Shown here: piece by piece, positions 23,749 through 45,224 of the stretch
How the letters are laid out: every line of letters begins with the position of its first letter
Position numbering within the stretch: position 1 is the first letter of the stretch
Assembly (NCBI GenBank): GCA_014859965.1
Contig: JACZKQ010000074.1
Span: forward strand, 124,001 to 188,000
Origin: Phycisphaerae bacterium
GTDB lineage: Bacteria > Planctomycetota > Phycisphaerae > Sedimentisphaerales > Anaerohalosphaeraceae
Length of the DNA: 64,000 bases
Reading direction: 5' to 3'
Translations under genes and position numbers: made by a program
The notes under the pieces: generated by a model
Told to the model about the DNA's origin: nothing
What the model saw: only the letters and a program-made list of their open reading frames with translations
Database searches by the model: none

Positions 23749-24612
23749 ATGGTTTCAGCAAGCACGCAGCACGGCATCCGGCAGGTGGTCTATACTCCGG
23801 GTTCGCATATAGAGCCCGGATTGCAGCACTGGCGAAAGATGGCGGTTGAACTTTTCGGCGCCAGGGAACTTATCTGGCGGTTTTTCCTGCGCGAGTTCTC
23901 GGCACGCTACCGACAGTCCTTCTTCGGGTATCTTTGGGCCGTCATGCCGGCGATTGTCATGGCCGCAACCTTTACCTATCTCAATCGCACCGGCACCCTG
24001 GCGATCGCAAAAACCGACTTGCCGTACCCGGTCTACGTCCTGTTGGGGATGACCGTATGGGAACTTTTCGCCTCCGGACTCACGCGAAGTGCTCAATGTC
24101 TGGTGAATGCGAGGATGATCATTACGCAGATCAATTTCTCACGCGAGACACTGGTGGTCGCTGCCTTCTGCGAAGCGATGTTGGACTTTCTAATACGCAC
24201 AGTCGTGATCGCGGCGGCTTTTGTGTGGTTCGATGTCGTACCGGCATGGACGGTGGTTCTGGTGCCGCTGATGCTCGTCCCGCTCGCCATGATAACAATC
24301 GGGCTGGGCTTCATACTGGCCCTGGCGAACGCGGTGTTTCGGGACATCGGCAACTCGCTGACGATGTTTCTGACGTTTGCGATGTTTCTGACGCCGGTGG
24401 TGTACCCACCGCCCGCCCAAGGGACCAGGGTGCTCATAAACTATTTAAACCCGATCAGCCCGTTCGTGATAGCCACGCGCGACCTTGCGACAACCGGACG
24501 GTTGAGCCAACCCGGGACACTGATAGGGGCAAGCCTGTTTGGAATTCTGATATTGTTCACGTGCTGGCGTGTCTTTCATCTTGCCATGTCGCGTATTGCT
24601 GAGAGAGTATAG
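23749..24612 (+). CDS. wzm: Polysaccharide ABC exporter, permease subunit (Wzm-like)
   Basis: This 287-residue ABC-2 permease begins with a cytoplasmic N-terminus. The hallmark segment RYRQSFFGYLWAVMPAI is followed by about six transmembrane helices and the family motif NPISPFVIATRDL before the last pair. Wzm-type permeases move undecaprenyl-linked O-antigen, capsule or teichoic-acid polymers across the inner membrane. The ATP-binding subunit follows after three bases, so the two form one transcription unit. GGGGAG upstream of the ATG supports the start. Confidence 0.92.
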   Translation: MVSASTQHGIRQVVYTPGSHIEPGLQHWRKMAVELFGARELIWRFFLREFSARYRQSFFGYLWAVMPAIVMAATFTYLNRTGTLAIAKTDLPYPVYVLLGMTVWELFASGLTRSAQCLVNARMIITQINFSRETLVVAAFCEAMLDFLIRTVVIAAAFVWFDVVPAWTVVLVPLMLVPLAMITIGLGFILALANAVFRDIGNSLTMFLTFAMFLTPVVYPPPAQGTRVLINYLNPISPFVIATRDLATTGRLSQPGTLIGASLFGILILFTCWRVFHLAMSRIAERV

Positions 24613-24615
24613 AAG

Positions 24616-25875
24616 ATGAGCGATCATGCCGTCATTCGTGTTGATTGTGTATCCAAGAAATTCTGCCGTGACTTGAAGCGTTCCATGCGGTACGGCTTTT
24701 CGGATGTGCTCACAGACACGTTCGGGTTTCGCGTCCGATCGGAGCGTCTGCGCAAAAAGGAATTCTGGGCGCTCGACGAAGTGTCATTCGAGATCAGAGA
24801 AGGCGAACGATTCGGAATAATTGGTCCCAACGGCTCGGGCAAAACCACGCTGCTGAAGATTATTAGCGGGATATGCGGGCCGGATTCCGGCGCCATGACC
24901 GTGCGTGGCCGGGTCGGCGCATTAATCGCCGTGGGCGCCGGATTTCATCCTCAATTAACGGGCCGAGAGAACATTTACATCAACGGCACGATTCTCGGCA
25001 TGAGCAAACGCGAGATCAAAAGCAAATTTGACAGCATTGTCGACTTCTCCGGCATCGAAGAATTTCTAGATACCCCCGTTAAGTTCTACTCGAGCGGCAT
25101 GTTTGTCAAACTGGGCTTTTCGATAGCGGCACACTGCGAACCGGACATTCTGCTGGTGGATGAGGTGCTGGCGGTCGGTGATATTGCATTTCAGTCAAAG
25201 TGCTTGAACCGACTGGAAGAACTGAAAAAAAAGGGGATCACTACGCTGCTCGTTTCGCACCACATGCCGAAAATCGGCAGTTTCTGTGAACGCGTGCTTT
25301 ATCTGTCAAACGGCAGAGTGAACGTTCTCGCGGAGCCGCATTTAGCGATCAATGCACTTGAGCGGGATATGTACCTTACGAGTGACTTAATCCGAAGCAA
25401 CGTTCAGTGCCCGGGGTATACTCCGCTTGGAGGCGCAAAGATCAAAAATCTGGTCTTCGAGCAACAATACAACGGCCACATCCGCGTGAATTACGGCGAA
25501 CCTATTAAAGTGCGGTTTGATTACGATCTGCTTGACAAGGACCCGGCGGATTGTGCGTTCGCGGTGCTTGTCAGGAGGGTTTCCGACGGTGTTATGTGTT
25601 TCGGCGCAATGTCGAATTTTCATGGCCTCAGGGTGGAGAAGAAGCAGGGGAGGGTGCATGTCGCAATCGACGGACACAACCTGGTGCCGGGCATCTACAA
25701 CGTTGACATTCAGATCCGCACGATCACCCTTGACAAGTCTTACGCCGCTCATCGCGAGCCGAAGCTTATCATTGAGTATCCGCCGGACAAATACATGCTA
25801 AGGAATCTTGCAGGAGTATATCAGCCCGCCGACATAGAATGGCGGCTGGTCGACCAGTACGCCGGCGTCTGTTGA
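24616..25875 (+). CDS. wzt: Polysaccharide ABC exporter, ATP-binding subunit with C-terminal glycan-binding domain (Wzt-like)
   Basis: This protein has 419 residues. The ATPase half shows Walker A GPNGSGKTT (about residue 70), the Wzt-style signature YSSGM (about 158), Walker B DILLVDEVLAVGD (about 177) and the switch His in LLVSHH (about 214). Residues 265-405 form a beta-rich extension like the Wzt C-terminal domain, which in E. coli O8/O9a recognises the finished chain end before export. Its presence suggests the exporter reads a specific terminal modification. The methyltransferase at 52803 is a candidate for making that cap (inference). Confidence 0.93.
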   Translation: MSDHAVIRVDCVSKKFCRDLKRSMRYGFSDVLTDTFGFRVRSERLRKKEFWALDEVSFEIREGERFGIIGPNGSGKTTLLKIISGICGPDSGAMTVRGRVGALIAVGAGFHPQLTGRENIYINGTILGMSKREIKSKFDSIVDFSGIEEFLDTPVKFYSSGMFVKLGFSIAAHCEPDILLVDEVLAVGDIAFQSKCLNRLEELKKKGITTLLVSHHMPKIGSFCERVLYLSNGRVNVLAEPHLAINALERDMYLTSDLIRSNVQCPGYTPLGGAKIKNLVFEQQYNGHIRVNYGEPIKVRFDYDLLDKDPADCAFAVLVRRVSDGVMCFGAMSNFHGLRVEKKQGRVHVAIDGHNLVPGIYNVDIQIRTITLDKSYAAHREPKLIIEYPPDKYMLRNLAGVYQPADIEWRLVDQYAGVC

Positions 25876-25997
25876 TCGACGAGGCGACCATGGGGGCTTC
25901 CTTGTGTTCATGGCACTACGCATGTCAAGACCAGATATTTCAGGCGTTTGATAATGGATTGGGAACGATAGGAACAAGGCACTTAGAAACCGTTTGC

Positions 25998-26002
25998 AGG
26001 AG
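25998..26002 (+). promoter_or_regulatory. Ribosome binding site fixing the start at 26010
   Basis: AGGAG lies seven bases before ATG 26010. An in-frame start 57 codons upstream would overlap the Wzt gene and would bury the signal peptide, so 26010 is preferred. Confidence 0.75.
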
Positions 26003-26009
26003 AACCGTC

Positions 26010-28904
26010 ATGAAAACTGAAAAACGATGGATTGCACAGGTGTGTGTTGGCACGGTGCTGTTGCTGTGCATGAGCGTATCTGCTCCGGGCGACGTGATCG
26101 TCGACAACGGCGACAGCGGCACGTCGTTTACAGGGACATGGGAGGTATCCGGAGGCTCTGACCCTTACGGCGCAGACAGTGTCTGGGCCCGCGATGGTGC
26201 GACTTACACCTGGGGGTTCGACTCTGAACCTGCCGGTAAATACGAGGTCTTGATGCGGTGGTCAGTATGGCCATCCAGGGCAAAGGCGATCGACGTGTCG
26301 ATCATGCACGCCGATGGTACGGATGCACTGCTCATCAATCAGCAAGTCGGCGGCGGTGTATGGAACAGTATGGGCGAGTACAATTTTGACGGATCCGGCA
26401 GCGTTACGATCACCGCGGCCGCCGGTCAAACGGTCAGCACCTGTGCGGACGCCGTATGGTTCAAACGTATGGACGTGGCCGAGGGGACTGTCGTAGACAA
26501 TGGCGATAGTAATACCTCTCGCACGGGCACGTGGCAGGTTTCTGACGGCTCTGGCCCGTACGGCGCGGATTCCGTCTGGAGCCGTGACGGCGGAACATTC
26601 ACGTGGTACTATACTCCGCCGCGAACCGGCGACTATGAAGTGGAAATGTGGTGGACGCCGTGGCCCTCACGGAGAAGTTCAGTGCCATTGGATGTCATAC
26701 ACGCGGACGGGACGCAAAGGATCACAGTGGACCAGCGGAGTAACGGCAGCCGGTGGAACTCGCTCGGAGTGTACACTCTTACCGGGGGCGTTCAGGCGTC
26801 TGTAACTCTGCTCGCCGAAGGCTCGGCGCCCGCCAGCTATTGCGCCGATGCAGTTAAATTCACTCTTGTCTACACCGATGAAGCGCCGGTGGCGGCAATT
26901 GATTCCGTACAGCCCAATCCCGCAATGCGGGGTGCAGCCATCGCATTCGAGGGTCACGGCACGGATTCCGATGGAGACATCGTTGCATACCACTGGGCCT
27001 CCAGTCTCGACGGGCACCTCAGTGAGGCTGCAAGTTTTTCCAGCGAAACGCTTTCTGAAGGTGTTCATGAAATAACATTGAAGGTGCAGGACGACAGGGG
27101 CCAATGGTCTGCGCCGGTCACTACCGTGTTGACCGTGAGCGCCACCCCTGTTGAGATCATCGTAGACAACAGCGACGCAAATACATCCCGGACAGGCACA
27201 TGGCAGGTGTCGGCCGGGTCTGAATGCTACGGTGAGGATTCTCTTTGGAGTCGCAGCGGCGCTACGTTCGTATGGTATTTCACTCCCGCCGAGGGCGGCG
27301 AGTACGAGGTGGCGATGTGGTGGACTCAGTACAATTCGCGAAGCGCCGCGGTGCCTGTGGACATCAAGCATGCCGGCGGAAAAGTGCGTGTTACCGTCAA
27401 CCAGTTGACCAACGGCGGCAGGTGGAACTCCTTGGGGGTGTATGCTTTCGATAGGGGGGTACGGTACGCCGTCACACTTTACGCCGACGACGTGTTTCCG
27501 ACGAGCTATTGTGCCGATGCGGTGAGATTCACTCCTGTTCAAATCAGTGACAAACCGGTTGCCGTGATTGATTCCATGCAGCCCAATCCCGCGATGGTGG
27601 GCCAGGCTGTCACTTTCCAAGGGCATGGCGCCGATTCGGACGGAGATGTCGTTGCATACAACTGGCAATCCAGTCTGGACGGTCATTTGAGCGACGCCGA
27701 CAGCTTTTCGACCAGCGCCCTTTCTGAGGGCGTTCATCAGATCAGCTTCAAGGTGTGCGATGATGGCGGCCAGTGGTCGCAGACAATGGTGAAGGCACTG
27801 ACCGTAAGTGCCGCGCCCGATGTCATTATTATCGATAACGGCAGCAGCGCTACATCGAAGACCGGCACGTGGGAGGTGTCCGGTGGTTCCGATCCGTACG
27901 GGGCCGATTCGGTGTGGAGCCGTGACGGCGGAACATTTACATGGCATTTCACTCCGCCGACAACCGGTGACTATGAGGTTTCGATGTGGTGGACCGAGTG
28001 GTTTTCACGAAGCAACTCCGTGCCGGTAGACATTGTGCACGCCGACGGTACGGAAAGGGTCGTCGTCAACCAGAGGACCAACACCGGTCGCTGGAATTCC
28101 CTGGGCGTGTATCCCTTTGTGGCGGGCGTCGACAAGGCAGTCACATTGACAGCCAATGGCACCACGCCGATCAGTTACTGTGCCGATGCGGTTAAAGTCA
28201 CTCTTGTAAAGAGCAACAAAATGCCGGTGGCTGTAATTGAAACCATGCAGCCTAACCCCGCGCCATTGGGCGCAACCGTATCTTTTGACGGCCGCGGAAC
28301 GGATTCCGACGGGACGGTCGTTGCATACCGGTGGGCCTCCAGCATCGACGGCGAGTTGAGTGATGCCGCCAGTTTTTCCAGCGATGCGCTGTCCGAAGGC
28401 GTCCACGAGATTACTTTCGAAGTGCAGGACGATGCAGGCGGGTGGTCCCGCACGGCTAACGGGGTTCTAACAGTTAACGCGGTGCCGATCGAAACCATCG
28501 TGGACAACCGTTCCAGCAATACATCCTCGACGGGCACGTGGGAGGTTTCAGGTGGTTCGCATTGCCACGACGTGGACTCAGTGTGGAGTCGTAACGGCGG
28601 CACGTTCACCTGGTACTTCACTCCCTCCGAGAGCGGTGATTACGAGGTGTCCATGTGGTGGACCGAATGGCCCTCTCGCAGCAGGGCCGTCAAGGTCGAT
28701 ATTGTCCATGCAGGCGGCACAAAAAGTGTCACTGTAAACCAGTGGATCGATGGCAGCCAGTGGAATTCACTGGGCGTGTACACCTTCAGCGAGGGTGTTC
28801 AGCATTCCATCACACTTCACGCCCCGGATGCGTTTCCAACAAGCTATTGTGCCGACGCGGTCAAATTCACAAAAGTGCCAGAGCCGGCGGCAACAGGTTC
28901 ATAG
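26010..28904 (+). CDS. Secreted golvesin/PKD mosaic protein 1
   Basis: This 964-residue protein has a signal peptide (VGTVLLLCMSVSA). It then carries five golvesin/xanthan-lyase-type carbohydrate-binding-like modules (about residues 28-153, 159-288, 382-510, 604-732 and 828-957). Three PKD-like domains lie between them (about 290-380, 514-602 and 736-825). Each module repeats the landmarks YGxDSVWSRDG, MWWTxWPSRS, NSLGVY and SYCADAVKFT. There is no catalytic domain. The Golvesin/Xly CBD-like domain is known from the C-terminus of xanthan lyases. Placed in an exopolysaccharide locus, this looks like a matrix protein binding the secreted glycan (inference). It ends VPEPAATGS without a membrane anchor. 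Confidence 0.85.
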   Translation: MKTEKRWIAQVCVGTVLLLCMSVSAPGDVIVDNGDSGTSFTGTWEVSGGSDPYGADSVWARDGATYTWGFDSEPAGKYEVLMRWSVWPSRAKAIDVSIMHADGTDALLINQQVGGGVWNSMGEYNFDGSGSVTITAAAGQTVSTCADAVWFKRMDVAEGTVVDNGDSNTSRTGTWQVSDGSGPYGADSVWSRDGGTFTWYYTPPRTGDYEVEMWWTPWPSRRSSVPLDVIHADGTQRITVDQRSNGSRWNSLGVYTLTGGVQASVTLLAEGSAPASYCADAVKFTLVYTDEAPVAAIDSVQPNPAMRGAAIAFEGHGTDSDGDIVAYHWASSLDGHLSEAASFSSETLSEGVHEITLKVQDDRGQWSAPVTTVLTVSATPVEIIVDNSDANTSRTGTWQVSAGSECYGEDSLWSRSGATFVWYFTPAEGGEYEVAMWWTQYNSRSAAVPVDIKHAGGKVRVTVNQLTNGGRWNSLGVYAFDRGVRYAVTLYADDVFPTSYCADAVRFTPVQISDKPVAVIDSMQPNPAMVGQAVTFQGHGADSDGDVVAYNWQSSLDGHLSDADSFSTSALSEGVHQISFKVCDDGGQWSQTMVKALTVSAAPDVIIIDNGSSATSKTGTWEVSGGSDPYGADSVWSRDGGTFTWHFTPPTTGDYEVSMWWTEWFSRSNSVPVDIVHADGTERVVVNQRTNTGRWNSLGVYPFVAGVDKAVTLTANGTTPISYCADAVKVTLVKSNKMPVAVIETMQPNPAPLGATVSFDGRGTDSDGTVVAYRWASSIDGELSDAASFSSDALSEGVHEITFEVQDDAGGWSRTANGVLTVNAVPIETIVDNRSSNTSSTGTWEVSGGSHCHDVDSVWSRNGGTFTWYFTPSESGDYEVSMWWTEWPSRSRAVKVDIVHAGGTKSVTVNQWIDGSQWNSLGVYTFSEGVQHSITLHAPDAFPTSYCADAVKFTKVPEPAATGS
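27154..28880 (+). repeat. Tandem golvesin + PKD units of about 222 residues
   Basis: Successive golvesin-PKD units begin near 27154, 27820 and 28492, a spacing of 666 and 672 bases. They are recognisable by VDNxxxNTSxTGTWxVS at each start. The last unit lacks its PKD half. Divergence between units is moderate, so the duplication is not recent. Confidence 0.75.
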
Positions 28905-28959
28905 AGGGGCACAGATCGTGCGCCGTTTCATCGTACGGGCAACTTTGTTCTCGACGTGC

Positions 28960-28970: not shown

Positions 28971-31900
28971 ATGGGGTTAGAAAAGTGGCTTTCAAGAAAG
29001 TGCATGCATTCACTTCTGAGGGCGATATGCGCTATCCATTTCGTCATCGCTTCGGTCGCTTACAGCGACGTGATCATTGACAATGGCGACAAAGGAACGG
29101 CGTTCACAGGAACCTGGGAAATATCAGGCGGCTCGAATCCGTACGGCGCCGACAGTGTATGGTCCCGCGACGGCGCGACCTATACGTGGGCATTTGATTC
29201 TCAACCCACAGGCAGCTATGAAGTTCTGATGTGGTGGTCGGCATGGCCGTCGAGGGCACCCGCAAACAGTGTATCGATAACTCATGGCCAGGGTGTCGAC
29301 GTCCTCCTTGTGGACCAGCAAATCGCCGGCGGCCAGTGGAACAGCCTGGGCGAGTACCATTTCGATGGCTCAGGCAGTGTCACGGTTACGGCTGCCGCCG
29401 GTGCGACGGTCAGTACGTGCGCCGACGCGGTATGGTTCAGGCGCACCAATGTGCCGGTGGAGATCATCGTAGACAACCGGGACACAGATACGTCGCGCAC
29501 GGGCACGTGGGAAGTGTCAGGCGGCTCCAATCCGTACGGTGCAGATTCGGTATTCAGCCGGGACGGCGCAACGTTTACGTGGCGCTTCACGCCTCCACAA
29601 AGCGGCCGGTATGAAATCTCCATGTGGTGGACCGAGTGGCCGTCGCGAAGTGCGGCTGCGCCGATCAATATCGTTCACGCCGGCGGAACGGAAGAAACCG
29701 CCGTAAACCAGCAGATCAACGGCGGACGCTGGAACTCCCTGGGCGCGTACACCTTCGCCGCAGGCGTACAGGCGTCCGTTACTCTTCTGGCGAAGAACGC
29801 GGCTCCTGTCAGCTATTGTGCCGATGCCGTAAAATTCACGCGTGTCGAACCGGAGACCATAGTGGACAACCGCGATGTTGATACGTCGCAGACGGGTAAA
29901 TGGGAAGTGTCAGGGGGCGCCGACCCCCACGGCTCGGATTCCGTTTGGAGCCGCGATGGCGGAACATTTACATGGCACTTTGTTCCACCACATAATGGAA
30001 ACTACGATCTGTCGATGTGGTGGACTCAGTGGCCTTCGCGCAGCACTGACGCACCGGTTGACATTACACATGCCTCCGGTACAACGAGGGTTACTGTTAA
30101 TCAGCAAATCGACGGCGGACGTTGGAACTCGCTTGGCGTCTACACTCTGAGTGCGGGTGTTCGGGCCTCTGTCACGCTGCTGGCTCCAAATCCGTCGCCG
30201 ACCAGCTATTGTGCCGACGCAGTAAAGTTTGCCCCCACTGGCAGCACCCCGATGCCGCTGGCGGTTATCGACGCCATCGATCCCAACCCCGCGGCCTTGG
30301 GTGAGACGGTCTCGTTTGCGGGTCACGGCACAGGCGGCACCATCTCTGCGTACCAATGGACCTCCAGCATTAATGGTCCTTTAAGCAGTGCCCGCAGTTT
30401 CTCGACGAATACGCTGTCCAAGGGCGTTCATGACATCACCTTTAAAGTTCAGGACAGTATGGGACAGTGGTCGCAGGCGGCGGGGCGGGTCCTGACCGTG
30501 AGCGCCGCGCCTGTCGAGATCGTGGTGGATAATCGGGATGCGAATACATCTTATACCGGTGTATGGGAGGTCTCGGGAGCGACAAAGTACTACGGCGCCG
30601 ATTCGGTATGGGGTCGTGACGGCGCAAAGTTCAAGTGGTATTTCATGCCGCCGGAAAGCGGTGACTACAAGGTGTGGATGTGGTGGACAGAATGGCCTTC
30701 AAGGAGCACTGCGGCGCCGATTGACATTGTTCATGGGCAAGGCACGGAGCGGGTTACCGCAAATCAACGCATCAACGGGGGCCGGTGGAACGCACTTGGC
30801 GTTTACACCTTCCAGAAAGGCGTTGAGGGTTCGGTTACCTTGCTGGCTTCAAACGGGTATCCGACAAGCTACTGTGCCGACGCCGTGAAATTCACAAGGG
30901 CCGCGGATCCTCCGGAGGCCGACTTTTACGCCAATGTGATTCGGGGACCCGCTCCGTTCACAGTCAATTTCGTTAATCAAACCACTGGAAATATTGACGC
31001 GTGGCGATGGGACTTCGGGGATGGGCAGACCGGCAGTTCGAAGAATCCAGCCCACACGTACACGAAGCCGGGCGTGTACACGGTAACTCTCACGGCAACC
31101 AATCAATACGGCACGCATACTACGAGACGGTACAGTTACGTGGACATCAAGGCAAACACCACTGAGAACATTTACGTGGTCGACGGATACGGCGGCAATG
31201 ACTACCTGGTGCCCGATATTAGAAAGAAGATGCGGGAAATGAATGCCACCGAAACGGCCGCCGGTTGGGTGTATCGCCCGGCGGATGTGGACATGACGTA
31301 CAACATTTACATCGTGCGCGATAAGGCCGCTGCCATAAACGCGCTGTATGAAGAGAACGCACACGTCATCATTGCCGGGCATGCCAATTACGGCTTTGGC
31401 CTCGTATTCGCAACGAGCAAGGAAATACTGGACCAGAGGATAAACGATTATCGCTACGTCGATGACGATCGCCTGCTGAACTACTCGACTGATTCGGTCT
31501 CTACGAAGGTTGACGGCATGAAGTACGGCCAGGCCTATCCTAACTGGCAAGCCGTCTTTAAGGACGGCAGCAGCGCCCTTATGCCTTATGACTTCGGCGA
31601 CCCGCGAGGAAACCCGCCCTATAATTACTACCTGACATATCAACTTCCGAATGATCCGACACATTACAGGGTTGAGATCAACGGCAGTTTTGTGGAGAGA
31701 TTCTCTGATTCCGGCGCTCCGGCGTGGTATTCATCGCAAGGCTTGAAACCCGATCCAAAGAGTAATTCAGAGTATTTCATAAGGAACAGCGATGTCCATT
31801 ACAACCGTTTCGATAAGACCGGCGAGTGGGTGATCAAAAAGGACCCGGCCGGCGGTTATTCCGGTGAAGCGGGTTATATGGGGTATAATTACCAGGTTCA

Positions 31901-33083
31901 ATGGCCGGGTTCGGGTGCAAAGGTGGCGAAATGGACAATGGTTGTTAAACGCGCCGGCCAGTACCGTGTGCTGGCTACATGGCCCGCTCACCCTGAAAAT
32001 GCGACAAATGCCAGGTACACCGTTCACCATGCCAATGGTTCCAGTGTAGTTTTGGCCGATCAGACGGCGACATTGCGGAGGAACTCGTTGGGCGTATACA
32101 ACTTCAGCGCCGGTCCAACCACAATTGAACTGAACGATAGCGCAAACGGCCAACTGGTGGCCGACGCAATGATACTGAGACCGGTGGCGGACGCTGAAAA
32201 GATTCTGCGGGCGGAATTCAGCGCCGACATTACGTCGGGTTCGGCACCGCTGACCGTGAAGTTCAGGGACCGAAGCGAGGATTATGTTTACGATTATTCG
32301 ACCCATATTAAGCAGTGGCACTGGGATTTTGGCGACGGTAACGTCAGCAGCGAACCGAATCCGAGCCATACCTACACTCGGACGGGTGCCTATACGGTAA
32401 CTCTGCGAGTAGTGGACACGGGCGGCGTTGAAGACACTGAAAGTAAAGTGAATTTTGTTACGCTGGGGACTCAGCCGAAGCCGCAGGCCCAGTTCCGGGC
32501 ATCTACCATGCGGGGCACTCAGAATATATATGTGAATTTCTACGATCAGAGTTCAGGTGGTGTCACCGGGTGGTCATGGAATTTTGGCGACGGGAAGGCA
32601 AGCAATCAGAAAAACCCCGTGCATAATTACACTCAGCCAGGCAGGTATACTGTGCGCCTCACGGTCACCGGCCCGGGCGGCAGCAGTACCGAAACTGAAA
32701 CGGAATACGTACACGTTTTCACCGGCGAGTCCTATACCGACAACACCTTCCAGACTAAACCGCATTTCTATCAAAGGGGCTATTCGACTTTCGGCAAAAC
32801 TATTTGTTACGCGGGAGAATCTTCAGTCAAGAAGGAAAAACTCAAATATACCAGACTGTTTCACGGTTCATGCGGCTCCTTTCCCTATTTCGGCGGTGTA
32901 TTTAATCGCGGCGTGATGTACGGCAAGGGCGGCAATGTCGAGATCGAGCGCGACACCGGCACGGCTTATCTCGAGTACTATCTGCGGGGATACACTGACT
33001 TGGATATTGTGGAACGTCTAAATGAGCTGGAAAACCTGCATGAGTTCTACAATTTCACCGAAAAGCCGCCGTCGATGAGGTGA
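28971..33083 (+). CDS. Secreted golvesin/PKD mosaic protein 2 with a possible split His/Cys peptidase-like domain
   Basis: This 1370-residue protein begins with a signal peptide (cleavage near residue 32). Four golvesin-type modules span about 34-643, with one PKD-like domain between the third and fourth. A classic PKD domain follows (about 648-726, WDFGDGQT). Then come an unrecognised domain A (about 730-940) with VIIAGHANYGFG (His804), a fifth golvesin module (944-1073), two PKD domains (1082-1252; WDFGDG and WNFGDG) and an unrecognised C-terminal segment with LFHGSCGSFPYF (His1298, Cys1301). Domain A has an alternating strand/helix pattern (NIYVVDGY, then VPDIRKKMREM). Together the two segments resemble the His and Cys halves of a caspase/gingipain-type fold split by an insertion. 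This is inference only. The paralog at 33198 keeps every one of these landmarks. Confidence 0.85.
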   Translation: MGLEKWLSRKCMHSLLRAICAIHFVIASVAYSDVIIDNGDKGTAFTGTWEISGGSNPYGADSVWSRDGATYTWAFDSQPTGSYEVLMWWSAWPSRAPANSVSITHGQGVDVLLVDQQIAGGQWNSLGEYHFDGSGSVTVTAAAGATVSTCADAVWFRRTNVPVEIIVDNRDTDTSRTGTWEVSGGSNPYGADSVFSRDGATFTWRFTPPQSGRYEISMWWTEWPSRSAAAPINIVHAGGTEETAVNQQINGGRWNSLGAYTFAAGVQASVTLLAKNAAPVSYCADAVKFTRVEPETIVDNRDVDTSQTGKWEVSGGADPHGSDSVWSRDGGTFTWHFVPPHNGNYDLSMWWTQWPSRSTDAPVDITHASGTTRVTVNQQIDGGRWNSLGVYTLSAGVRASVTLLAPNPSPTSYCADAVKFAPTGSTPMPLAVIDAIDPNPAALGETVSFAGHGTGGTISAYQWTSSINGPLSSARSFSTNTLSKGVHDITFKVQDSMGQWSQAAGRVLTVSAAPVEIVVDNRDANTSYTGVWEVSGATKYYGADSVWGRDGAKFKWYFMPPESGDYKVWMWWTEWPSRSTAAPIDIVHGQGTERVTANQRINGGRWNALGVYTFQKGVEGSVTLLASNGYPTSYCADAVKFTRAADPPEADFYANVIRGPAPFTVNFVNQTTGNIDAWRWDFGDGQTGSSKNPAHTYTKPGVYTVTLTATNQYGTHTTRRYSYVDIKANTTENIYVVDGYGGNDYLVPDIRKKMREMNATETAAGWVYRPADVDMTYNIYIVRDKAAAINALYEENAHVIIAGHANYGFGLVFATSKEILDQRINDYRYVDDDRLLNYSTDSVSTKVDGMKYGQAYPNWQAVFKDGSSALMPYDFGDPRGNPPYNYYLTYQLPNDPTHYRVEINGSFVERFSDSGAPAWYSSQGLKPDPKSNSEYFIRNSDVHYNRFDKTGEWVIKKDPAGGYSGEAGYMGYNYQVQWPGSGAKVAKWTMVVKRAGQYRVLATWPAHPENATNARYTVHHANGSSVVLADQTATLRRNSLGVYNFSAGPTTIELNDSANGQLVADAMILRPVADAEKILRAEFSADITSGSAPLTVKFRDRSEDYVYDYSTHIKQWHWDFGDGNVSSEPNPSHTYTRTGAYTVTLRVVDTGGVEDTESKVNFVTLGTQPKPQAQFRASTMRGTQNIYVNFYDQSSGGVTGWSWNFGDGKASNQKNPVHNYTQPGRYTVRLTVTGPGGSSTETETEYVHVFTGESYTDNTFQTKPHFYQRGYSTFGKTICYAGESSVKKEKLKYTRLFHGSCGSFPYFGGVFNRGVMYGKGGNVEIERDTGTAYLEYYLRGYTDLDIVERLNELENLHEFYNFTEKPPSMR

Positions 33084-33197: not shown

Positions 33198-36100
33198 ATG
33201 AAAGTGCAGGAATGTGTTTCAAGAGGAATGTTGCGAACGGCGATGCTAATGGCCTGCGTTGCAGGTATTGTCAGTTCGGACGCATGCGGCAACGTGATCA
33301 TAGATAACGGTGACACGCGCTGTTCGCATACAGGCACGTGGGAGGCCTCACGCGGAGGCAGAGCGTACGGTGGAGGCAGTTTGTGGGCCCGCGACGGCGC
33401 GACCTACACGTGGCGGTTCGAATCCGAGCCTGAAGGAAAGTACGAAGTTCTGATGTGGTGGTCGGCCGCGCCGTCGAGGGCGAGGGCAGTTGCGGTTTCC
33501 ATAGAACATGCCGAAGGTTCGGATGCGCTGCTCATTAACCAGCGAGCAGCGGGCGGCCGGTGGAACAGTCTGGGTGAATACTCTTTTAACGGGTCGGGCA
33601 AAGTTACGATCACAGCGTCCAGCGGCTCGAAGGCCAGTACCTGCGCCGATGCTGTCTGGTTCCGGCGTTCGGATCCGCACGGCGAAACCATTGTGGATAA
33701 CCGCGACAGGCAAACATCCCGGCGCGGCAAGTGGGTGATTTCGGACGCCGCGGAATGTCACGGCGAAGATTCCGTCTGGGGCAGTTGCCGCGCCACCTTC
33801 ACCTGGTACTTCGTTCCGCAGCAGAGCGGGGACTATGAAGTAGCGATGTGGTGGACCGAAAAGGCGTCCCAGAGTACTTCCGCCCCGGTGGATATCCGAT
33901 ATGCCGGCGGTAAGGAACGCGTGCTCGTCAACCAGCAGATCAATGGCGGCCGGTGGAACCCGCTGGGCGTGTACAACTTTAAGAAGGGGGCCCGGCATTC
34001 TGTCACACTCTGGGCTCGGGACCGATTTCCCATGACCTACTGTGCCGACGCGGTCAAATTCACCGCTGTTGGCGCCAGTGAACTGCCGGTTGCCGTAATT
34101 GACTCGATTGAGCCCGCTCATCCCAAACTGGACCAGAGCGTGACCTTCAAAGGCCACGGCACGGACAGCGACGGCGAAGTCGTTGCATACCGTTGGGAAT
34201 CCAGCGTCGACGGCCATCTGAGCGATTCAGACGTCTTTGCAACGGACAAACTGTCCAAGGGCGTGCACACAATATCCTTCACGGTTCAGGATGATTCCGG
34301 TCGGTGGTCGAAAGCGGTGGTGCGGGACATAAAGGTAGGCAACGCTCAGACATCGGAGCCGGCGAAGGCGGATTTTGCAGCCGACCATATTCGAGGTCCC
34401 GTTCCGTTCACGGTAAAATTCACGAATCACACTGCCGGAGATGCGGATCAATGGTCTTGGGATTTCGGTGACGGCAAGACAAGCACAGAAACAAACCCAA
34501 CTCACACATACACCGCTCCCGGCGTGCGTACCGTTTCTCTGACCGCGAGCAGCCAGGGACGCACGCATACCAGGACGAGATACTGTTACATCGATGTCAA
34601 GGCGGCCAAGGTGGAGAACGTCTATGTATGTAACGCGTATACCGGTAACAATTTCCTTGTGCCCGATTTGACAAAGAAGATGCGGGAAATGGGTGCGACG
34701 GAGACAGCCGACGGTTGGTCGTACCGACCGGGGAATTCTGACATGACTTACAACATTCACGTCGTGCACGACAAGGAGGCGACCGTGAATGCTTTTTATG
34801 CAAAGGATTCGCATGTGGTCATCGCCGGACACGGCAATTACGGGTTCGGACTGGTCTATGCCGATCCGAAGGAAACATTGGCTAACAGGATCGATCATTA
34901 TCGTTATGTGGACGATGATTGCCTGGTGAACTATTCCACCGACTGGGTTTCGACGAAGGTCGACGGCATGAAGTACGGGCAGTCCTATCCGAACTGGCGG
35001 CCTGATTTCAAGGATGGCCGCAGCGCCGTGATGCCGTATGATTTCGGGGATGCGCGGGGCAATCCTCCTTACAACTACTACTTGACGCACCAGGTTGGAA
35101 AAGATCCAACGCATCACAAAATTAAAGTAAACGGCCAGTATGTGGAGAGGTTTCCCGATTCGGGCGTTCCCGCATGGTATTCGCCGCAAGGTCTGAAACC
35201 TGATCCGCACCGTAATCCTGAATTCTTTATCAGGAACCCTGATACGCATTACAACAGGTTCGACTGTGTCGGGGAATGGACGATCAGCAAGATTGCAGGG
35301 GCCGGGTTCACGGGCGAGGCAGGTTACATGGGTTACAACTACCAGGTCCAATCGCCGGGTTCGGGAAGCAAGGTCGCCACATGGACGATAGCCGTCAAAC
35401 ATGCGGGCCGGTACGAGGTGCTTGCCAACTGGCCGGCCCTTGCCGATAACGCAACGAATGCCAAATACACGGTCCACCATGCCGAAGGCGCGACTGTGGT
35501 TGTCATGGATCAGACCCGCTCGGCACGGAGAAACTCGCTCGGTGTGTTTAATTTCGAGCCCGGCGCTGCAAAGGTTCAATTGGATGACAATGCCAACGGC
35601 CGTGTGGTTGCCGATGCGGTAATACTCCGGCCGGCTGCCGACCCCACTAAGATTCTCAAAGCCGAATTCAGCGCCGATGCTGCATCAGGTTCGGTTCCTT
35701 TGACGGTCCACTTCAAAGACCAGAGTCTCTGCTACAGCTACGACTATTCAATAAAACCTGCCGAATGGCATTGGGATTTTGGCGACGGCACAACCAGCAG
35801 GGAGCAGCATCCCAGCCATACCTACGTTCAGGCGGGGACATACACAGTGAAGCTGCGCGTCGTCGGCACCGACGGCACCAAAGATACTAACAACAAGACC
35901 CGCTTCATTGCGGCCGGCGGAACACCGGCTCCAAAGGCGCAGTTCAGAGCATCACCCCTGCAGGGCGTGCAAGACACCTATGTGACGTTCCATGATCAGA
36001 GTTCCGGGGATGTTAACCAGTGGTCGTGGGATTTCGGCGACGGCCATCAGAGTAATGAGAAGAACCCGGTGCACAAGTACGAGACGCCGGGCATGTACAA

Positions 36101-36524
36101 GGTTCGTCTGACGGTTGCCGGTCCTCAGGGAAATGATACGGAGACCAAAGAGAACTATGTGCACATCAGAGTCGGCGAATGCTTTACGGACAACTCGTTC
36201 CAGATCAAACCGCACTATTATTCTCAAGGGTATTCTATGTTCGGCATGGTGATCTGTTATGCCGGCGAGCCGTCGATCGAAAAGGCGCGCATGCGCCACG
36301 CCAGGCTGTACCACGGCTCATGCGGCAGCTTCACTTATTTCGGCACGACGTTCGATCGCGGTATCATGTACGGCAAGCAGGGTATTACCGAGGTTGAAAA
36401 TGATACGTCGGTCGTTTACCTGGAGTGGTACTTGCGGGGATATCCGGATGAGGACATCTGCGAACGTTTAAACCGCATTGAGCGCATTCACTACTTCTAC
36501 AACTTCGACGAGAAGCCGCTTTGA
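33198..36524 (+). CDS. Secreted golvesin/PKD mosaic protein 3 with a possible split His/Cys peptidase-like domain
   Basis: This 1108-residue paralog of the preceding gene has fewer N-terminal modules. It has a signal peptide, two golvesin-type modules (about 33-156 and 162-289), a PKD-like domain (295-381) and a PKD domain (390-467, WDFGDGKT). Domain A (470-686) carries VVIAGHGNYGFG (His545). A third golvesin module (688-814), two PKD domains (821-991) and a C-terminal segment with LYHGSCGSFTYF (His1039, Cys1042) follow. The part from domain A onward has the same order as mosaic protein 2 and is strongly similar, for example KVDGMKYGQSYPNW and MPYDFGDARGNPPYNYYLT. The selectively conserved His and Cys motifs argue for a shared enzymatic role. 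A terminator-like hairpin follows the gene. Confidence 0.85.
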   Translation: MKVQECVSRGMLRTAMLMACVAGIVSSDACGNVIIDNGDTRCSHTGTWEASRGGRAYGGGSLWARDGATYTWRFESEPEGKYEVLMWWSAAPSRARAVAVSIEHAEGSDALLINQRAAGGRWNSLGEYSFNGSGKVTITASSGSKASTCADAVWFRRSDPHGETIVDNRDRQTSRRGKWVISDAAECHGEDSVWGSCRATFTWYFVPQQSGDYEVAMWWTEKASQSTSAPVDIRYAGGKERVLVNQQINGGRWNPLGVYNFKKGARHSVTLWARDRFPMTYCADAVKFTAVGASELPVAVIDSIEPAHPKLDQSVTFKGHGTDSDGEVVAYRWESSVDGHLSDSDVFATDKLSKGVHTISFTVQDDSGRWSKAVVRDIKVGNAQTSEPAKADFAADHIRGPVPFTVKFTNHTAGDADQWSWDFGDGKTSTETNPTHTYTAPGVRTVSLTASSQGRTHTRTRYCYIDVKAAKVENVYVCNAYTGNNFLVPDLTKKMREMGATETADGWSYRPGNSDMTYNIHVVHDKEATVNAFYAKDSHVVIAGHGNYGFGLVYADPKETLANRIDHYRYVDDDCLVNYSTDWVSTKVDGMKYGQSYPNWRPDFKDGRSAVMPYDFGDARGNPPYNYYLTHQVGKDPTHHKIKVNGQYVERFPDSGVPAWYSPQGLKPDPHRNPEFFIRNPDTHYNRFDCVGEWTISKIAGAGFTGEAGYMGYNYQVQSPGSGSKVATWTIAVKHAGRYEVLANWPALADNATNAKYTVHHAEGATVVVMDQTRSARRNSLGVFNFEPGAAKVQLDDNANGRVVADAVILRPAADPTKILKAEFSADAASGSVPLTVHFKDQSLCYSYDYSIKPAEWHWDFGDGTTSREQHPSHTYVQAGTYTVKLRVVGTDGTKDTNNKTRFIAAGGTPAPKAQFRASPLQGVQDTYVTFHDQSSGDVNQWSWDFGDGHQSNEKNPVHKYETPGMYKVRLTVAGPQGNDTETKENYVHIRVGECFTDNSFQIKPHYYSQGYSMFGMVICYAGEPSIEKARMRHARLYHGSCGSFTYFGTTFDRGIMYGKQGITEVENDTSVVYLEWYLRGYPDEDICERLNRIERIHYFYNFDEKPL

Positions 36525-36619: not shown

Positions 36620-37678
36620 ATGATTATAGCCATCCATCCAGATGACTTCACCACCCCCAGGAGCGCCGGCCGCGACGCGTCGGCGCCTCTCTGGACTCAG
36701 CACTTGACCGCCGCCGGGCACCACGTGCGCCAGGTGGACGTGACAAGGGCGGATATTCTGAACCAACTCAGAGGCTGTGACGGTTTCATGTGGCGTCACG
36801 GACACCTGCCTCATCATCGGCAGATCGCGCGTCGCCTCCTGCCGGTTGTCGAAAGAGAAATGGGTATTGCAGTTTATCCGGATCAGAACACCTGTTGGCA
36901 TTATGATGACAAGGTCACTCAGAACTATTTGTTGACAGCCGCCGGAATACCCACTCCTGAAACATGGGTCTGGTTTGATTATGACCAGGCGATGGATTGG
37001 ATTGAGAGTGCAAAGTTTCCGCTGGTTATCAAGCTTTGGAACGGAACCGCTTCACAGAATGTGTGCCTGGCGAAAGACCTCCCGGCGGCCAAGAAATGGG
37101 TTCATCGACTTTTCAAAATCGGTGTGGCCAATATGGACGAATGGTCGAGCCCGCCAGTGAAAACATTTTACCGGCGACTGCGCCGTGCGGGCAGTATTCT
37201 TCTCAAAGGTCATTTTTACAACAGGCCATGGGAACTACATAAGAACTACATACTGGCGCAGGAATTCATAGAAGGCAATGCTTTCGATACGAGAGTCGTT
37301 GTCATCGGCCGGCGGGCATTCGCCAAGAGGCGATGGAATCGCCCCGGGGATTTTCGGGCGAGCGGCAATAGCCAGGTGGATAACAACCCCGCGAACATTG
37401 ACATGGGCGCCGTTCATTTAGCCTTCCGAGCGGCGGAACGATTGGGAACACAATCTTTAGCGCTGGATATCCTCCGGTCCGGGGACGAGTTTCTCGTTAG
37501 TGAAATCAGCTACACGTATCCTTCGTTCGCACAGTATGCCTGTCCAGGACATTGGGAAATGACGCCGGACGGCCTAATGTGGACCGAAGGCCGCATGTGG
37601 CCGGAAGAGGCGCAAGTTGAGGATTTCCTTGTTCGCCTCGAATCACAACACCGTTGCAGGGGTCCCGTGTGCGTATAG
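36620..37678 (+). CDS. ATP-grasp domain protein
   Basis: This 352-residue protein resembles RimK/glutathione-synthetase-like ATP-grasp enzymes. The N-terminal subdomain recognises a start such as IIAIHPDD. The central ATP-grasp part contains DKVTQNYLLTAAGIPTPETW (the usual D-K...L...G.P.P phrase), FPLVIKLWNG (ATP-binding Lys), ILAQEFIEGNAFDTRVVVIG (E..xGxDxRV) and LALDILRSGDEFLVSEISYT. Such enzymes join a carboxylate, activated as acyl phosphate, to an amine or thiol. Its placement before the glycosyltransferases, and with CapK- and CapA-like genes in the same locus, suggests attachment of an amino acid or similar group to a glycan precursor (inference). The downstream gene overlaps its stop by 10 bases. 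Confidence 0.85.
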   Translation: MIIAIHPDDFTTPRSAGRDASAPLWTQHLTAAGHHVRQVDVTRADILNQLRGCDGFMWRHGHLPHHRQIARRLLPVVEREMGIAVYPDQNTCWHYDDKVTQNYLLTAAGIPTPETWVWFDYDQAMDWIESAKFPLVIKLWNGTASQNVCLAKDLPAAKKWVHRLFKIGVANMDEWSSPPVKTFYRRLRRAGSILLKGHFYNRPWELHKNYILAQEFIEGNAFDTRVVVIGRRAFAKRRWNRPGDFRASGNSQVDNNPANIDMGAVHLAFRAAERLGTQSLALDILRSGDEFLVSEISYTYPSFAQYACPGHWEMTPDGLMWTEGRMWPEEAQVEDFLVRLESQHRCRGPVCV

Positions 37679-38925
37679 CATTTCTCACATCCGAATATGT
37701 AACCGAAGCCAGTTTTGCCGGCGGACTGGCACAGTACCTTGGACGAGTCACAAGCGGGTTAGTCGCACGCGGACATGATGTGGAGGTATTTGTAATTGCC
37801 GAATCATGTGAGACCGTAGAGCACCAGGGTGTCATCGTCCGGCGTGTACCGGCAAAGAAATGGCTGCCTTTGCGGATCGCAAATATCGCATGTAAAGCGA
37901 TGCACAGGCGACGGCTTTGCAAGTCGCAGTTAGCGTGCAGTACGGCGCTGGGTTTATATCATGCTTTCCGCCAACGCGCATCGGCGGCCAGGTTTGACAT
38001 CGTACAGGCCGCCAGTTGGCTTGGCACGGGCTACTTTGCGGCGAAAAACCCGTGGACACCCGTCGTCGTGCGGGCCTCTTCGTTTGAACCCGTGCTGTTT
38101 CCTCACCGCGGACAAAGTCTGTCGCTCGACGAAACGATATATTGCCGGTTTGAGACCGCGGCGATGCGTCGCGCGGCGGCCGTTTATACGCCCAGCAGGT
38201 TTCTGGCCGGCGAAATTCGGAAGGCCACGGGCGTTCAACCCCACGTTGTCAATCCGCCGTTCTGTGCAGCACTCGGCCGGGCGCGAGAAGACGTGGGCGC
38301 ACATGACGGCCGGTCAGATTACGTTATGTATTTCGGCAAGGTGGCAAAGTACAAAGGTTCAGGGCTTCTTGCCGAAGCGATCGAACCGTTGTTGACACAG
38401 ACTGAGCAACTGCATCTTGTGATTGCCGGGCCGAGCGAGGACGATCCTGAAGCGCAGCGTCTGTTGTCGCTTGCGGAGCGCTTTCCAGCTTCGGTGCGTT
38501 ATGTCGGGTCGCGCGACCATGATACGGTCATGCGGCTTGTCGGAGGGGCCCGCGTCGTTGTTCTGCCATCGCTGATGGACAATTTGCCCAATACCTGCCT
38601 GGAGGCGATGGCGATGGGAAAAGTTGTCGTCGGGCCCAATGGCGTCAGTTTCGATGAACTCATTACAGACGGACAGTCGGGTATCCTTTTTCAAACCGGC
38701 AATCCGTTGTCTTTACGGCAGGGTATTTTGCAGGCGTGGCACATGACCGAGGACCGGCGCCGCGCGATGGGACGTGCAGCGTGCATGAGAATAGATCAGA
38801 TGGCGCCGGAAACGGCCCTGCGCGATTTGGAATGCTTCTACGAAGGCGTGATAGAGAACCATGCACAATCAGGCGGTACGAGGAGGCCCGTTGGTCGGGT
38901 CGCAAAAGAATGTTCCTTACGGTAA
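37669..38925 (+). CDS. Glycosyltransferase, GT4-type (GT-B fold)
   Basis: This 418-residue protein starts at a GTG overlapping the previous stop by 10 bases; an upstream TTG at 37654 is possible. It has the GT-B layout. The N-terminal domain holds RIAFLTSEY and a glycine-rich acceptor loop (FAGGLAQYLGRV). The C-terminal donor domain contains YFGKVAKYKG, LVIAGPSEDDPEA and the EX7E-type region NTCLEAMAMGKVVVGPNGVS. It is a cytoplasmic or membrane-associated sugar transferase acting on the lipid-linked intermediate. The specific sugar cannot be predicted. Confidence 0.9.
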   Translation: MRIAFLTSEYVTEASFAGGLAQYLGRVTSGLVARGHDVEVFVIAESCETVEHQGVIVRRVPAKKWLPLRIANIACKAMHRRRLCKSQLACSTALGLYHAFRQRASAARFDIVQAASWLGTGYFAAKNPWTPVVVRASSFEPVLFPHRGQSLSLDETIYCRFETAAMRRAAAVYTPSRFLAGEIRKATGVQPHVVNPPFCAALGRAREDVGAHDGRSDYVMYFGKVAKYKGSGLLAEAIEPLLTQTEQLHLVIAGPSEDDPEAQRLLSLAERFPASVRYVGSRDHDTVMRLVGGARVVVLPSLMDNLPNTCLEAMAMGKVVVGPNGVSFDELITDGQSGILFQTGNPLSLRQGILQAWHMTEDRRRAMGRAACMRIDQMAPETALRDLECFYEGVIENHAQSGGTRRPVGRVAKECSLR

Positions 38926-39857
38926 CAATACAAACGCATAACAACGCAGGCATGCTGGATGCGACATTGCAGAAGCTGCAGACCTTGCAGTGTCCACTGG
39001 AAAGCGATTACGAAATACTTGTGGTCGACAACAACAGCTCGGACAGTACCCCGGAAGTTATAAGAATGCACATGGAAACACAGCGGGCCAGAATGAGAAG
39101 TGTATTCGAATCCGCTCAGGGACTTAGCCACGCCCGTAATCGGGCCTTGAAGGAAGCCTCCGGAGAGGTCGTGTGCTTTCTGGACGACGATGTGGTCGTC
39201 GATCCCGGATGGCTCCATGCCGTATCTGCGGCGTTTAAGAAGTATGGCGCGGACGTTGTCGGCGGGCGAAGTTATCTGATCTATCCGTGTGATCGCCCGG
39301 AATGGATGAGTCCGTTGACCGAAGTCCTTCTCTCTCGACTGGATCATGGCGATACGGCCCTGGTTAACACGGACAAGGATCTGTTCGGCTTGAATTTCTC
39401 TGTGCGTCGGCGGCTGGCGATCGAATTGGGGGGCTTTAGGACGGACTACGGCAGACGCGGTAAATCCCTCACTTGCGGCGAAGAGATCGAACTGCTGGAT
39501 CGCGTACGCAACAGGGGCGGAATGGTCGTCTACGAACCGGCCGCCGTGGTGGGGCATGTGGTTAAGCCCGAGCGGCTGTCAAGAAGCTGGCTGCTTCGGC
39601 GCACCTATGCCGGAGCGGTGGCGACTGAACGTCTGTTGATCGGCAAGGGAAAAGTCGGCCGCGTCGGAGCCCTGGGCATGCATACCGCGCGCTGCTGGGG
39701 AAGTGTCCTCAAGAGCTTGCTTTGGCGGCGAGATTCGGCATTAACGCTGTTTGAAAAGCAGTATTACGCCGCCTACAGCCTGGGCCGATTCGCGGCGAGC
39801 GTAAGGAATTCATATTTCAGTATATCCCCGAAGATTCGCAGAGGGACCCAGGTGTGA
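38910..39857 (+). CDS. Glycosyltransferase family 2
   Basis: This 315-residue GT-A transferase begins FLTVTIQTHNNAGML. Nucleotide-binding and metal-binding motifs follow: LVVDNNSSD and CFLDDDVVVDPGWL (DDD as the DXD motif). EEIELLDRV is a probable catalytic-base region. ATG 38910 overlaps the preceding gene by 16 bases; a longer frame upstream is read through that gene and is less likely. It is translationally coupled to its neighbours on both sides. Confidence 0.9.
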   Translation: MFLTVTIQTHNNAGMLDATLQKLQTLQCPLESDYEILVVDNNSSDSTPEVIRMHMETQRARMRSVFESAQGLSHARNRALKEASGEVVCFLDDDVVVDPGWLHAVSAAFKKYGADVVGGRSYLIYPCDRPEWMSPLTEVLLSRLDHGDTALVNTDKDLFGLNFSVRRRLAIELGGFRTDYGRRGKSLTCGEEIELLDRVRNRGGMVVYEPAAVVGHVVKPERLSRSWLLRRTYAGAVATERLLIGKGKVGRVGALGMHTARCWGSVLKSLLWRRDSALTLFEKQYYAAYSLGRFAASVRNSYFSISPKIRRGTQV

Positions 39858-40834
39858 CCGGAGTATCCATCATCATTCCGCTTTATAACAAAGCCGGCTT
39901 TGTCGGGCGGGCTCTAAAGTCCGTATTCTCGCAGAGCTTTCAGGATTATGAAGTTATTGTCGTGGATGACGGGTCTACTGACAGCGGAGCCGAGATCGTC
40001 AGAAGCTGCAAGGATAAACGCGTACGACTCATCCAGCAGGCGAATGCGGGCCCCGGTGCGGCTCGCAATCGGGGCATAAGAGCCAGTCGGTATAATTATG
40101 TGACGTTTCTCGACGCGGATGACGAATGGCTGCACGGTTTTTTGCAGACGTCGATTGACAATCTGCGAGCGTCTCCCGATTGCGTTGTTTCGGTGACGGG
40201 CCATTGCATTGGCGAAGAGAAGTGTCCGTGGCCGGGCCTTGCGAAATTACAGATCGCCAGGGGACCGTGGCGGCTGGAGCCGCATATGGATCCGCGTCTG
40301 ATGGGGGCGGCGCTGGCCTTTATGCATTCGGCTGGGGCCTTAATGTGCCGCCGCGAGGTCCTGATGCGTTTTGGGGGATTCTATGAGAAGGCCTGCGTGT
40401 ACGGCGAGGATTTGTACCTGTGGCTCCAGGTCATGTTGAATTGCCGCATATTCAGGGATCCGGCGCCCCTGTTTTGGCAGCACACGGAAAGCTCGGAACT
40501 TACAAATGCCGGCCGGGCTGTCCAGCGGAAGCAGCCTGTGATGCCTTTTCTGACCTTTCCTGACGTGATCAGAAGAACCTGCCCGCAGACGCATCGAAAG
40601 CTGCTCGAACGCTATTTGGCATACGAGGCGTTATGCAGCGCACATGAGTGTTCGACCGAGGGCAATGTGTCGGTCGCACGGGGGCTGCTGATGAATTATC
40701 CTTGGATGAAATCCCACCGATGGCAGTATACGAAGCTGAGATACAAACTGGCATTCCCGAAGACAGTGCCGTTTCTCCGCAAATCGAAGAGGGCTCTGCG
40801 GCTCGACCGGGTGGCGTCAATATTCGCAAGCTGA
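39854..40834 (+). CDS. Glycosyltransferase family 2 (duplicate A)
   Basis: This 326-residue GT-A enzyme starts at a GTG that overlaps the previous stop (GTGA). Motifs are SIIIPLYNKAGFVGRAL, VIVVDDGSTDSG, NAGPGAARNRG and TFLDADDEW (DXD type). A candidate acceptor/base region is YGEDLYLWLQVM. It is closely similar along its length to the next gene, indicating a tandem duplication. It should add a sugar to the growing lipid-linked chain. Confidence 0.9.
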   Translation: MTGVSIIIPLYNKAGFVGRALKSVFSQSFQDYEVIVVDDGSTDSGAEIVRSCKDKRVRLIQQANAGPGAARNRGIRASRYNYVTFLDADDEWLHGFLQTSIDNLRASPDCVVSVTGHCIGEEKCPWPGLAKLQIARGPWRLEPHMDPRLMGAALAFMHSAGALMCRREVLMRFGGFYEKACVYGEDLYLWLQVMLNCRIFRDPAPLFWQHTESSELTNAGRAVQRKQPVMPFLTFPDVIRRTCPQTHRKLLERYLAYEALCSAHECSTEGNVSVARGLLMNYPWMKSHRWQYTKLRYKLAFPKTVPFLRKSKRALRLDRVASIFAS

Positions 40835-40905
40835 TTTGGTTCTTTTTACAACTGCCCTGTCATCTGCAAGGGCAATCTTATTAGGTCCTGAAGGTGTGGC
40901 CTGCT

Positions 40906-41868
40906 ATGACTGATGTGAGCGTTATCATACCACTATACAACAAAGCGCAATATATCCGCAGAACCCTGGATTCCGTATTGGCTCAGACCTATTCAAATTT
41001 TGAGGTCGTCATTGTCGACGACGGATCGGACGACAATGGCCCCGAGATCGTCAGCAGTTATGATGATACCCGCATCCGGCTGATTCGACAGGAAAATGCC
41101 GGACCCGGAGCCGCCCGGAACTATGGAACACAATGCAGTGAGGGCGCATTGGTGACCTATCTGGATGCCGATGACGAATGGATGCCGGGGTTCCTGCAAA
41201 CGTCGGTGGACATATTGGCGCGACATTCGGATTGTGACTTTGCCGCTTCCGGGTACTACATCGGGCCCGACAAGATCGACCGGGGCCGGCAACTGACGCA
41301 TCATCGCATACCCATCGGTCCATGGCGACTGCCGCTTGACGCAGACCAGGAGCAGTTGAGTTACGCCCTCGGCGTATTTCATTCCTGCGCGACGGTCTAC
41401 AGACGATGGGTCATTGAGAAATACGGCGGCTTTTACACTAAAAACGCCTGCAACTACGGTGAGGACGTTTACCTTTGGCTGCAGATATTGTTTGGCCACA
41501 AGTTCTTCCGCAATGAAGAGGCGCTTGCCTGGTACCATTGGGAAGCATCGGAATTGGGGCTGAGCAGTTCTCGGAAGTCCTTTCCAATAGAACCGTCGTT
41601 ATTGGACAGTGAACCGTTATATAGAAACTGCCCTGTACATTATCATCCGCTCCTGGATCGCTGGCTGAGTATTCACGCGCTCCGTGCCATGCATCTGAAT
41701 GTCGAACTGGCTGATATGGCCCAAGCCCGTCAGCTTCTCAAAGCGTTCCCCGCAATCAGAGAGTGGAACTGGGAGTACTTGAAATTAAGAGTCAAGATGC
41801 TATGCCCTGACGTGATCCCTCACGTGCGGCGTTTTAAAGCCGAAATGCGTCACTTGACGCGCCGGTAG
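40906..41868 (+). CDS. Glycosyltransferase family 2 (duplicate B)
   Basis: This 320-residue paralog of the preceding transferase shares SVIIPLYNKAQYIRRTL, VIVDDGSDDNG, NAGPGAARNYG, TYLDADDEWMPGFLQTSVD and YGEDVYLWLQI. AAGGTG nine bases before ATG 40906 supports this start; a GTG at 40894 is an alternative. The C-terminal thirds of the two copies differ more than the catalytic parts, consistent with a changed acceptor after duplication. Confidence 0.9.
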   Translation: MTDVSVIIPLYNKAQYIRRTLDSVLAQTYSNFEVVIVDDGSDDNGPEIVSSYDDTRIRLIRQENAGPGAARNYGTQCSEGALVTYLDADDEWMPGFLQTSVDILARHSDCDFAASGYYIGPDKIDRGRQLTHHRIPIGPWRLPLDADQEQLSYALGVFHSCATVYRRWVIEKYGGFYTKNACNYGEDVYLWLQILFGHKFFRNEEALAWYHWEASELGLSSSRKSFPIEPSLLDSEPLYRNCPVHYHPLLDRWLSIHALRAMHLNVELADMAQARQLLKAFPAIREWNWEYLKLRVKMLCPDVIPHVRRFKAEMRHLTRR

Positions 41869-45144: not shown

Positions 45145-45224
45145 GCCAAGTGTTTGTGCGCCACAAAATCATGAAAAACAAGTAGTTACTTCAACACAAC
45201 GAATTGCGGATACGAGGGGGTCTT

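Follow-up and report, generated by a model that had tools for sequence, protein, structure and literature searches.

The window, the whole stretch of 64,000 nucleotides analysed here, holds an exopolysaccharide/capsule locus. A Poly_export/SLBB polysaccharide export gene (18360-19091), an ABC-2 membrane protein with an ABC ATPase (23749-25875), glycosyltransferases (37654-41868) and a Wzz/tyrosine-kinase-like ATPase with a bacterial sugar transferase (54577-58519) are all encoded on the forward strand, as are the proteins considered below, numbered 1 to 3, and a RimK-like ATP-grasp protein (36620-37678) directly downstream of protein 3. In the Pfam matches, protein 1 (25839-28904) has golvesin and PKD repeats only; it lies upstream of the other two genes and looks like a paralog without their core. 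Protein 2 (P0001, 28956-33083, 1375 aa) has, from its translation and Pfam matches, a signal-peptide-like N-terminus, golvesin repeats and PKD, and then a predicted caspase-like domain that is split in two. Protein 3 (P0002, 33168-36524, 1118 aa) is a paralog with the same split core. Weak similarity to AMP-binding (adenylating) enzymes was also seen within the polysaccharide locus, at 45204-46676 and 48134-49513. At the edge of the locus a 5690 aa ORF (65-17137) has FG-GAP repeats, cadherin/Ig-like domains, dockerins and a weak C-type lectin match, and it is possible that this giant surface protein is a substrate or partner of the split-core proteins.

The split core and its insert

An earlier note on this DNA had described two strongly conserved, unrecognised segments in proteins 2 and 3, with a His and a Cys 497 residues apart and a golvesin module and two PKD domains between them, and all of this is borne out. 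Both ORFs are real, and neither segment matches any Pfam or NCBIfam model. A sequence search of solved structures likewise gave nothing convincing for the core, the only matches being to the golvesin and PKD parts. We number P0001 from a GTG start at 28956, the earlier note having used an ATG at 28971, and His809 and Cys1306 here are its His804 and Cys1301; His555 and Cys1052 of P0002 are 545 and 1042 in its count. The N part of the P0001 core, placed by the AlphaFold2 model and homolog alignments, spans residues 736-944 (31161-31787). In it VIIAGH809ANYGFG follows strand 3 and is itself followed by about 130 conserved residues; the codon of His809 (CAT), the predicted catalytic His, is at 31380-31382. 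The C part, placed by the model and by its co-occurrence with the N part, spans residues 1260-1375 and the stop codon (32733-33083). Here FHGSC1306GSF follows strand 4, and the codon of Cys1306 (TGC), the predicted nucleophile, is at 32871-32873. In P0002 the N part lies at 34614-35237 (His555 at 34830-34832) and the C part at 36183-36524 (Cys1052 at 36321-36323). The paralogs are 67% identical in the N segment and 60% in the C segment. By eye, the N-termini of the window proteins are signal-peptide-like, from which we infer that the split-core proteins are secreted.

The insert of P0001 begins with a golvesin module (31800-32189; Pfam PF25275; model residues 221-350), which matches the xanthan-lyase C-terminal domain 6f2p with Z 17.1 and 32% identity. 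Two PKD domains with Z values of 12-13 follow, the one at 32193-32471 (Pfam PKD; 6aem, Z 12.1, model residues 352-444) and the other at 32472-32726 (1l0q, Z 13.6, model residues 445-528). Pfam matches and the comparison of the paralogs place the same golvesin and two PKD domains of P0002 at 35250-36176. Among 14 members of the family the Golvesin_C model PF25275 was matched in 13 (best E 6.5e-29) and the PKD model in 12 (best E 3.6e-35). The golvesin-PKD-PKD insertion is about 315 residues long and lies in the predicted connection between beta3 and beta4. In 29 distinct full-length cores the gap between the N and C profile matches is mostly 291-314 residues, the outliers being two cores with 120-130, one with 518 and the relative L014 with 5; in L013 the insert is a golvesin module only. 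Proteins with a golvesin/xanthan-lyase type domain are lectins in Bacteroides (PMC9166713).

Relatives of the split core

His and Cys are both kept in all 29 full-length relatives (30-64% identity; Planctomycetota, 'Deltaproteobacteria' and Omnitrophota) and in three of three distant relatives of about 25% identity; in six of the 29 the Cys was read by eye, in the rest by pattern. Homologs without the His or the Cys, which would have spoken against the earlier note's reading, were looked for among these sequences, and none was found. As the relatives come from several phyla, the conservation of the pair is more than chance. The window's own genome holds five complete split-core copies and one that is cut at a contig end, and of 148 related genomes searched, five others carry one to three copies each. 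In a scan of genome contigs from 84,980 species, each represented by one genome, 19 loci were found in Planctomycetota, records titled Deltaproteobacteria, Syntrophobacterales, Desulfobacterales, Desulfosarcina widdelii and Omnitrophota; D. widdelii, a cultured species, has a single copy. The family is sparse in even genome samples. Among 392 genomes of the window's phylum it was seen in the window's own genome, with distant relatives in two others, and in the phylum of Desulfosarcina it was found in 4 of 297 genomes. The viral contigs searched held no relative.

Tandem pairs of the split-core gene occur in distant genomes (L034, L036, L040 and L046) as well as in the window, which suggests that the pairs work together. 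The window protein ends in NF..KPPS[ML]R and a stop codon (33048-33083), an ending that is near-identical in many relatives across phyla (for example L007, L008, L013, L035, L036, L040 and L045); several relatives have extra C-terminal tails of about 80-220 residues instead. The conserved terminal Arg could matter to the enzyme, as Arg-specific members are common in the clan with which the core is compared below.

A sugar-transfer ATP-grasp gene (PF14397) lies downstream of the split-core gene in L034, L036, L040, L045, L047, L050 and L063, and is absent from that position at L038 and L041. Each of 11 genomes searched has between zero and five matches to this family, and its adjacency to the split-core gene is therefore unlikely to be due to chance. 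In the assembly with L034 this downstream gene (7839-8919) is broken into two frames that overlap. The surroundings in other lineages resemble those in the window, with genes for capsule (PGA_cap), pyruvyl transferase, flippase, glycosyltransferase and UDP-GlcNAc 2-epimerase among the neighbours.

The two halves form one domain

Whenever both the N and the C segment could be observed, a single gene carried the two. Uninterrupted homologs, the search for which the earlier note had proposed, were found twice. In L014 the two halves are joined directly, with no golvesin or PKD insert. L052, L053 and L055 are proteins of another family in the same phylum, reached through a weak profile match, which have GHSNFGMG and SC and in which golvesin and PKD are absent. 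When the profile of the split-core family without its insert was aligned to them with hhalign, the match spanned both halves (98.7%, E 2.9e-16) and brought each of the two residues, His and Cys, onto its counterpart. The reverse search, from the profile of L052, L053 and L055, recovered four proteins of the genome that holds the window, by their C part, so that the two families find each other from either side. These three are uncharacterised planctomycete proteins whose only Pfam match is a borderline one to PF14930, upstream of the region related to the core.

We considered L014 as the ancestral uninterrupted form and rejected this, since in the tree its long branch nests, with support 91/89, among the members that have the insert. 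From its position, L014 has probably lost its insert secondarily, and it is the family of L052, L053 and L055 that is the independent witness. The direct joining in L014 and this insert-free distant family together indicate that the N and C segments are one domain.

Predicted fold

AlphaFold2 models were made of the L014 domain (pLDDT 74.5, pTM 0.77, from 14 sequences) and of the window domain (pLDDT 88.2, pTM 0.76, from 26 sequences), and the core elements are the same in both; residues 142-152 and 206-220 are weak stretches of the L014 model. In each, both segments build a single alpha/beta domain in which strand 1, a helix, strand 2, a helix and strand 3 precede the His and strand 4 precedes the Cys, followed by a helix, strand 5, two helices and strand 6. 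The strands in question are residues 66-70, before H72, and 241-245, before C247, in L014, and 75-79, before H81, and 572-575, before C578, in the window model. In clan CD peptidases the His of the dyad is at the C-terminal end of beta3 and the Cys at the C-terminal end of beta4 (PMC4357240). The predicted models of L014 and the window place the two residues at these ends, and the conserved His is ahead of the Cys in all 29 full-length and three distant relatives.

Of the 50 matches listed by VIA-align for L014, 48 are caspase-fold enzymes (clan CD entries) and two are DdvA, which we count apart and whose fold class we leave unassigned. The best match is SAVED-CHAT (Z 9.3, 161 residues at 3.4 A), and separase (8.1), C11 iotapain (7.8), caspase-7 (6.4), metacaspase (6.3) and MALT1 (5.8) are also present, with alignments over model residues 1-310. 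As single Z values below 8 are unremarkable, it is the make-up of these 50 matches that is the evidence, and it places the predicted L014 model in the caspase/haemoglobinase fold. Foldseek alone on L014 gave no match with E <0.001; nucleosidases and GTPases were at the top, over partial stretches, and the candidates included many other alpha/beta folds. With the whole window model the Foldseek and VIA lists were filled by matches to the insert. The predicted models and the structural neighbours of L014 thus support a caspase-like topology of the clan CD type for the split core, and with it the earlier proposal of a caspase-like fold that holds a glycan-binding insertion.

In one respect the core is atypical. 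A Gly next to the catalytic His, on its C-terminal side, has been reported as a conserved feature of every clan CD family (PMC4357240). The core motif of the split-core family is H-[S/A/G]-N-[Y/F]-G-x-G, and the residue after the His is Ser in 21, Ala in 7 and Gly in 1 of 29 sequences. Of the GH(G) motif to which the earlier note had appealed, the His therefore stands and the Gly that follows it does not, being Ser or Ala in 28 of 29. Because of this replacement we liken the putative working of the core to that of clan CD enzymes but file it in no known peptidase family. The Pfam models of Peptidase_C14, C11, C25 and CHAT gave no match up to E 10 in 14 members, and hhalign against the same four families gave probabilities of at most 2.1%; C14 against C11 and C14 against C25 also fail in this set-up, however, so the negative result with sequence profiles says little. 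A literature search found no paper on such a domain. As modelled, this is a caspase-fold family that has yet to be classified, and the insertion between its catalytic residues is unusual.

Function and alternative explanations

The reading that we favour, and hold to be likely, is that these proteins are secreted, glycan-anchored caspase-fold cysteine enzymes, peptidases or transpeptidases, of the polysaccharide matrix that use a His-Cys dyad. A caspase-fold pseudoenzyme, catalytically inactive and serving for structure or binding within an adhesive matrix protein, would account for the non-canonical residue after the His, for the golvesin and PKD domains that make up most of the protein and for the neighbouring paralog (25839-28904) that has these domains only. 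We consider it unlikely, since pseudoenzymes usually lose the catalytic dyad, and here His and Cys are invariant in 32 of 32 sequences, the long-branched L014 included.

Two further explanations dispute the fold itself. The two segments might be separate folds with unrelated roles and the order of their motifs a coincidence, as the 497 residues between them and the lack of a match of either to a known sequence family would allow; their direct fusion in L014, the uninterrupted distant family, their constant co-occurrence and the one domain predicted from both make this very improbable. As GHSN resembles the esterase elbow GHSxG, GHSNYG could also be the nucleophile elbow (GxSxG-like) of an alpha/beta-hydrolase or other fold and not a caspase His motif. 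This we regard as scarcely credible: in 8 of 29 sequences, both window proteins among them, Ala or Gly stands in place of the Ser, while the His is invariant, and no alpha/beta-hydrolase is among the 50 structural matches listed for L014. We reject the alpha/beta-hydrolase reading of GHSN, the Ser not being conserved.

In the favoured reading, that of a secreted caspase-fold enzyme, both segments would build one domain with a His-Cys dyad, and the golvesin module and two PKD spacers would sit in the beta3-beta4 connection, between the catalytic residues. The dyad would act in thiol catalysis, which would make the protein a working cysteine peptidase or transpeptidase, the label 'peptidase' being itself putative. 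The golvesin modules may bind the producer's own polysaccharide, and, given the place of the insert between the catalytic strands, a bound glycan could conceivably position the active site or act as its switch. The substrates would probably be matrix or surface proteins that are processed or attached, or peptide-decorated polysaccharide. We also entertain, as a doubtful extension, a glycan-gated transpeptidase, in which the insert, on binding the cell's own exopolysaccharide, would close the active site and the enzyme would couple exported proteins to the polysaccharide or trim peptide groups from it. Such an enzyme would be an equivalent of PorU beyond the Bacteroidota. If this is true, the polysaccharide substrate is made by the surrounding genes.

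Most clan CD enzymes are compact and are usually controlled by loops, prodomains or small ligands. In the predicted split core a whole carbohydrate-binding module and two spacers separate the catalytic His from the Cys, and this arrangement recurs in several phyla and in exopolysaccharide gene clusters. The predicted domain would add an unclassified caspase-fold family to the bacterial surface, opens the question of whether glycan binding controls a caspase-type active site, and would link polysaccharide synthesis to protein processing.

Comparison with known systems

The split core resembles the clan CD peptidases (caspases C14, clostripain-like C11, separase C50, CHAT/SAVED-CHAT and gingipain C25), its best structural matches, in the predicted order of strands and helices, with the His after beta3 and the Cys after beta4. 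It differs from them in having no sequence-profile match, in the Ser or Ala in place of the Gly after the His, and in the golvesin-PKD-PKD insertion of about 315 residues between beta3 and beta4. The sortase PorU is gingipain-like. At the cell surface it joins secreted proteins to a surface polysaccharide, anionic LPS, by transpeptidation (PMC8545088). The likeness is that of a surface enzyme and a surface polysaccharide, the glycan link of the split core coming from its gene context; the difference is one of family, and a type IX system and a C-terminal sorting domain are not among the features seen here. It is the gene context that suggests a PorU-type transpeptidation onto surface polysaccharide for the split core. 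A caspase-like fold, of the legumain family, is also that of PIGK/Gpi8. This catalytic subunit of the GPI transamidase swaps a signal peptide for a glycolipid anchor by transamidation (PMC10491789); it belongs to a eukaryotic membrane complex and has no golvesin or PKD insert, and the likeness is conceptual. The C-terminal/golvesin domain of xanthan lyase (PF25275) is the same as the inserted module, but there it is appended to the lyase, whereas here it interrupts a predicted caspase-like core.
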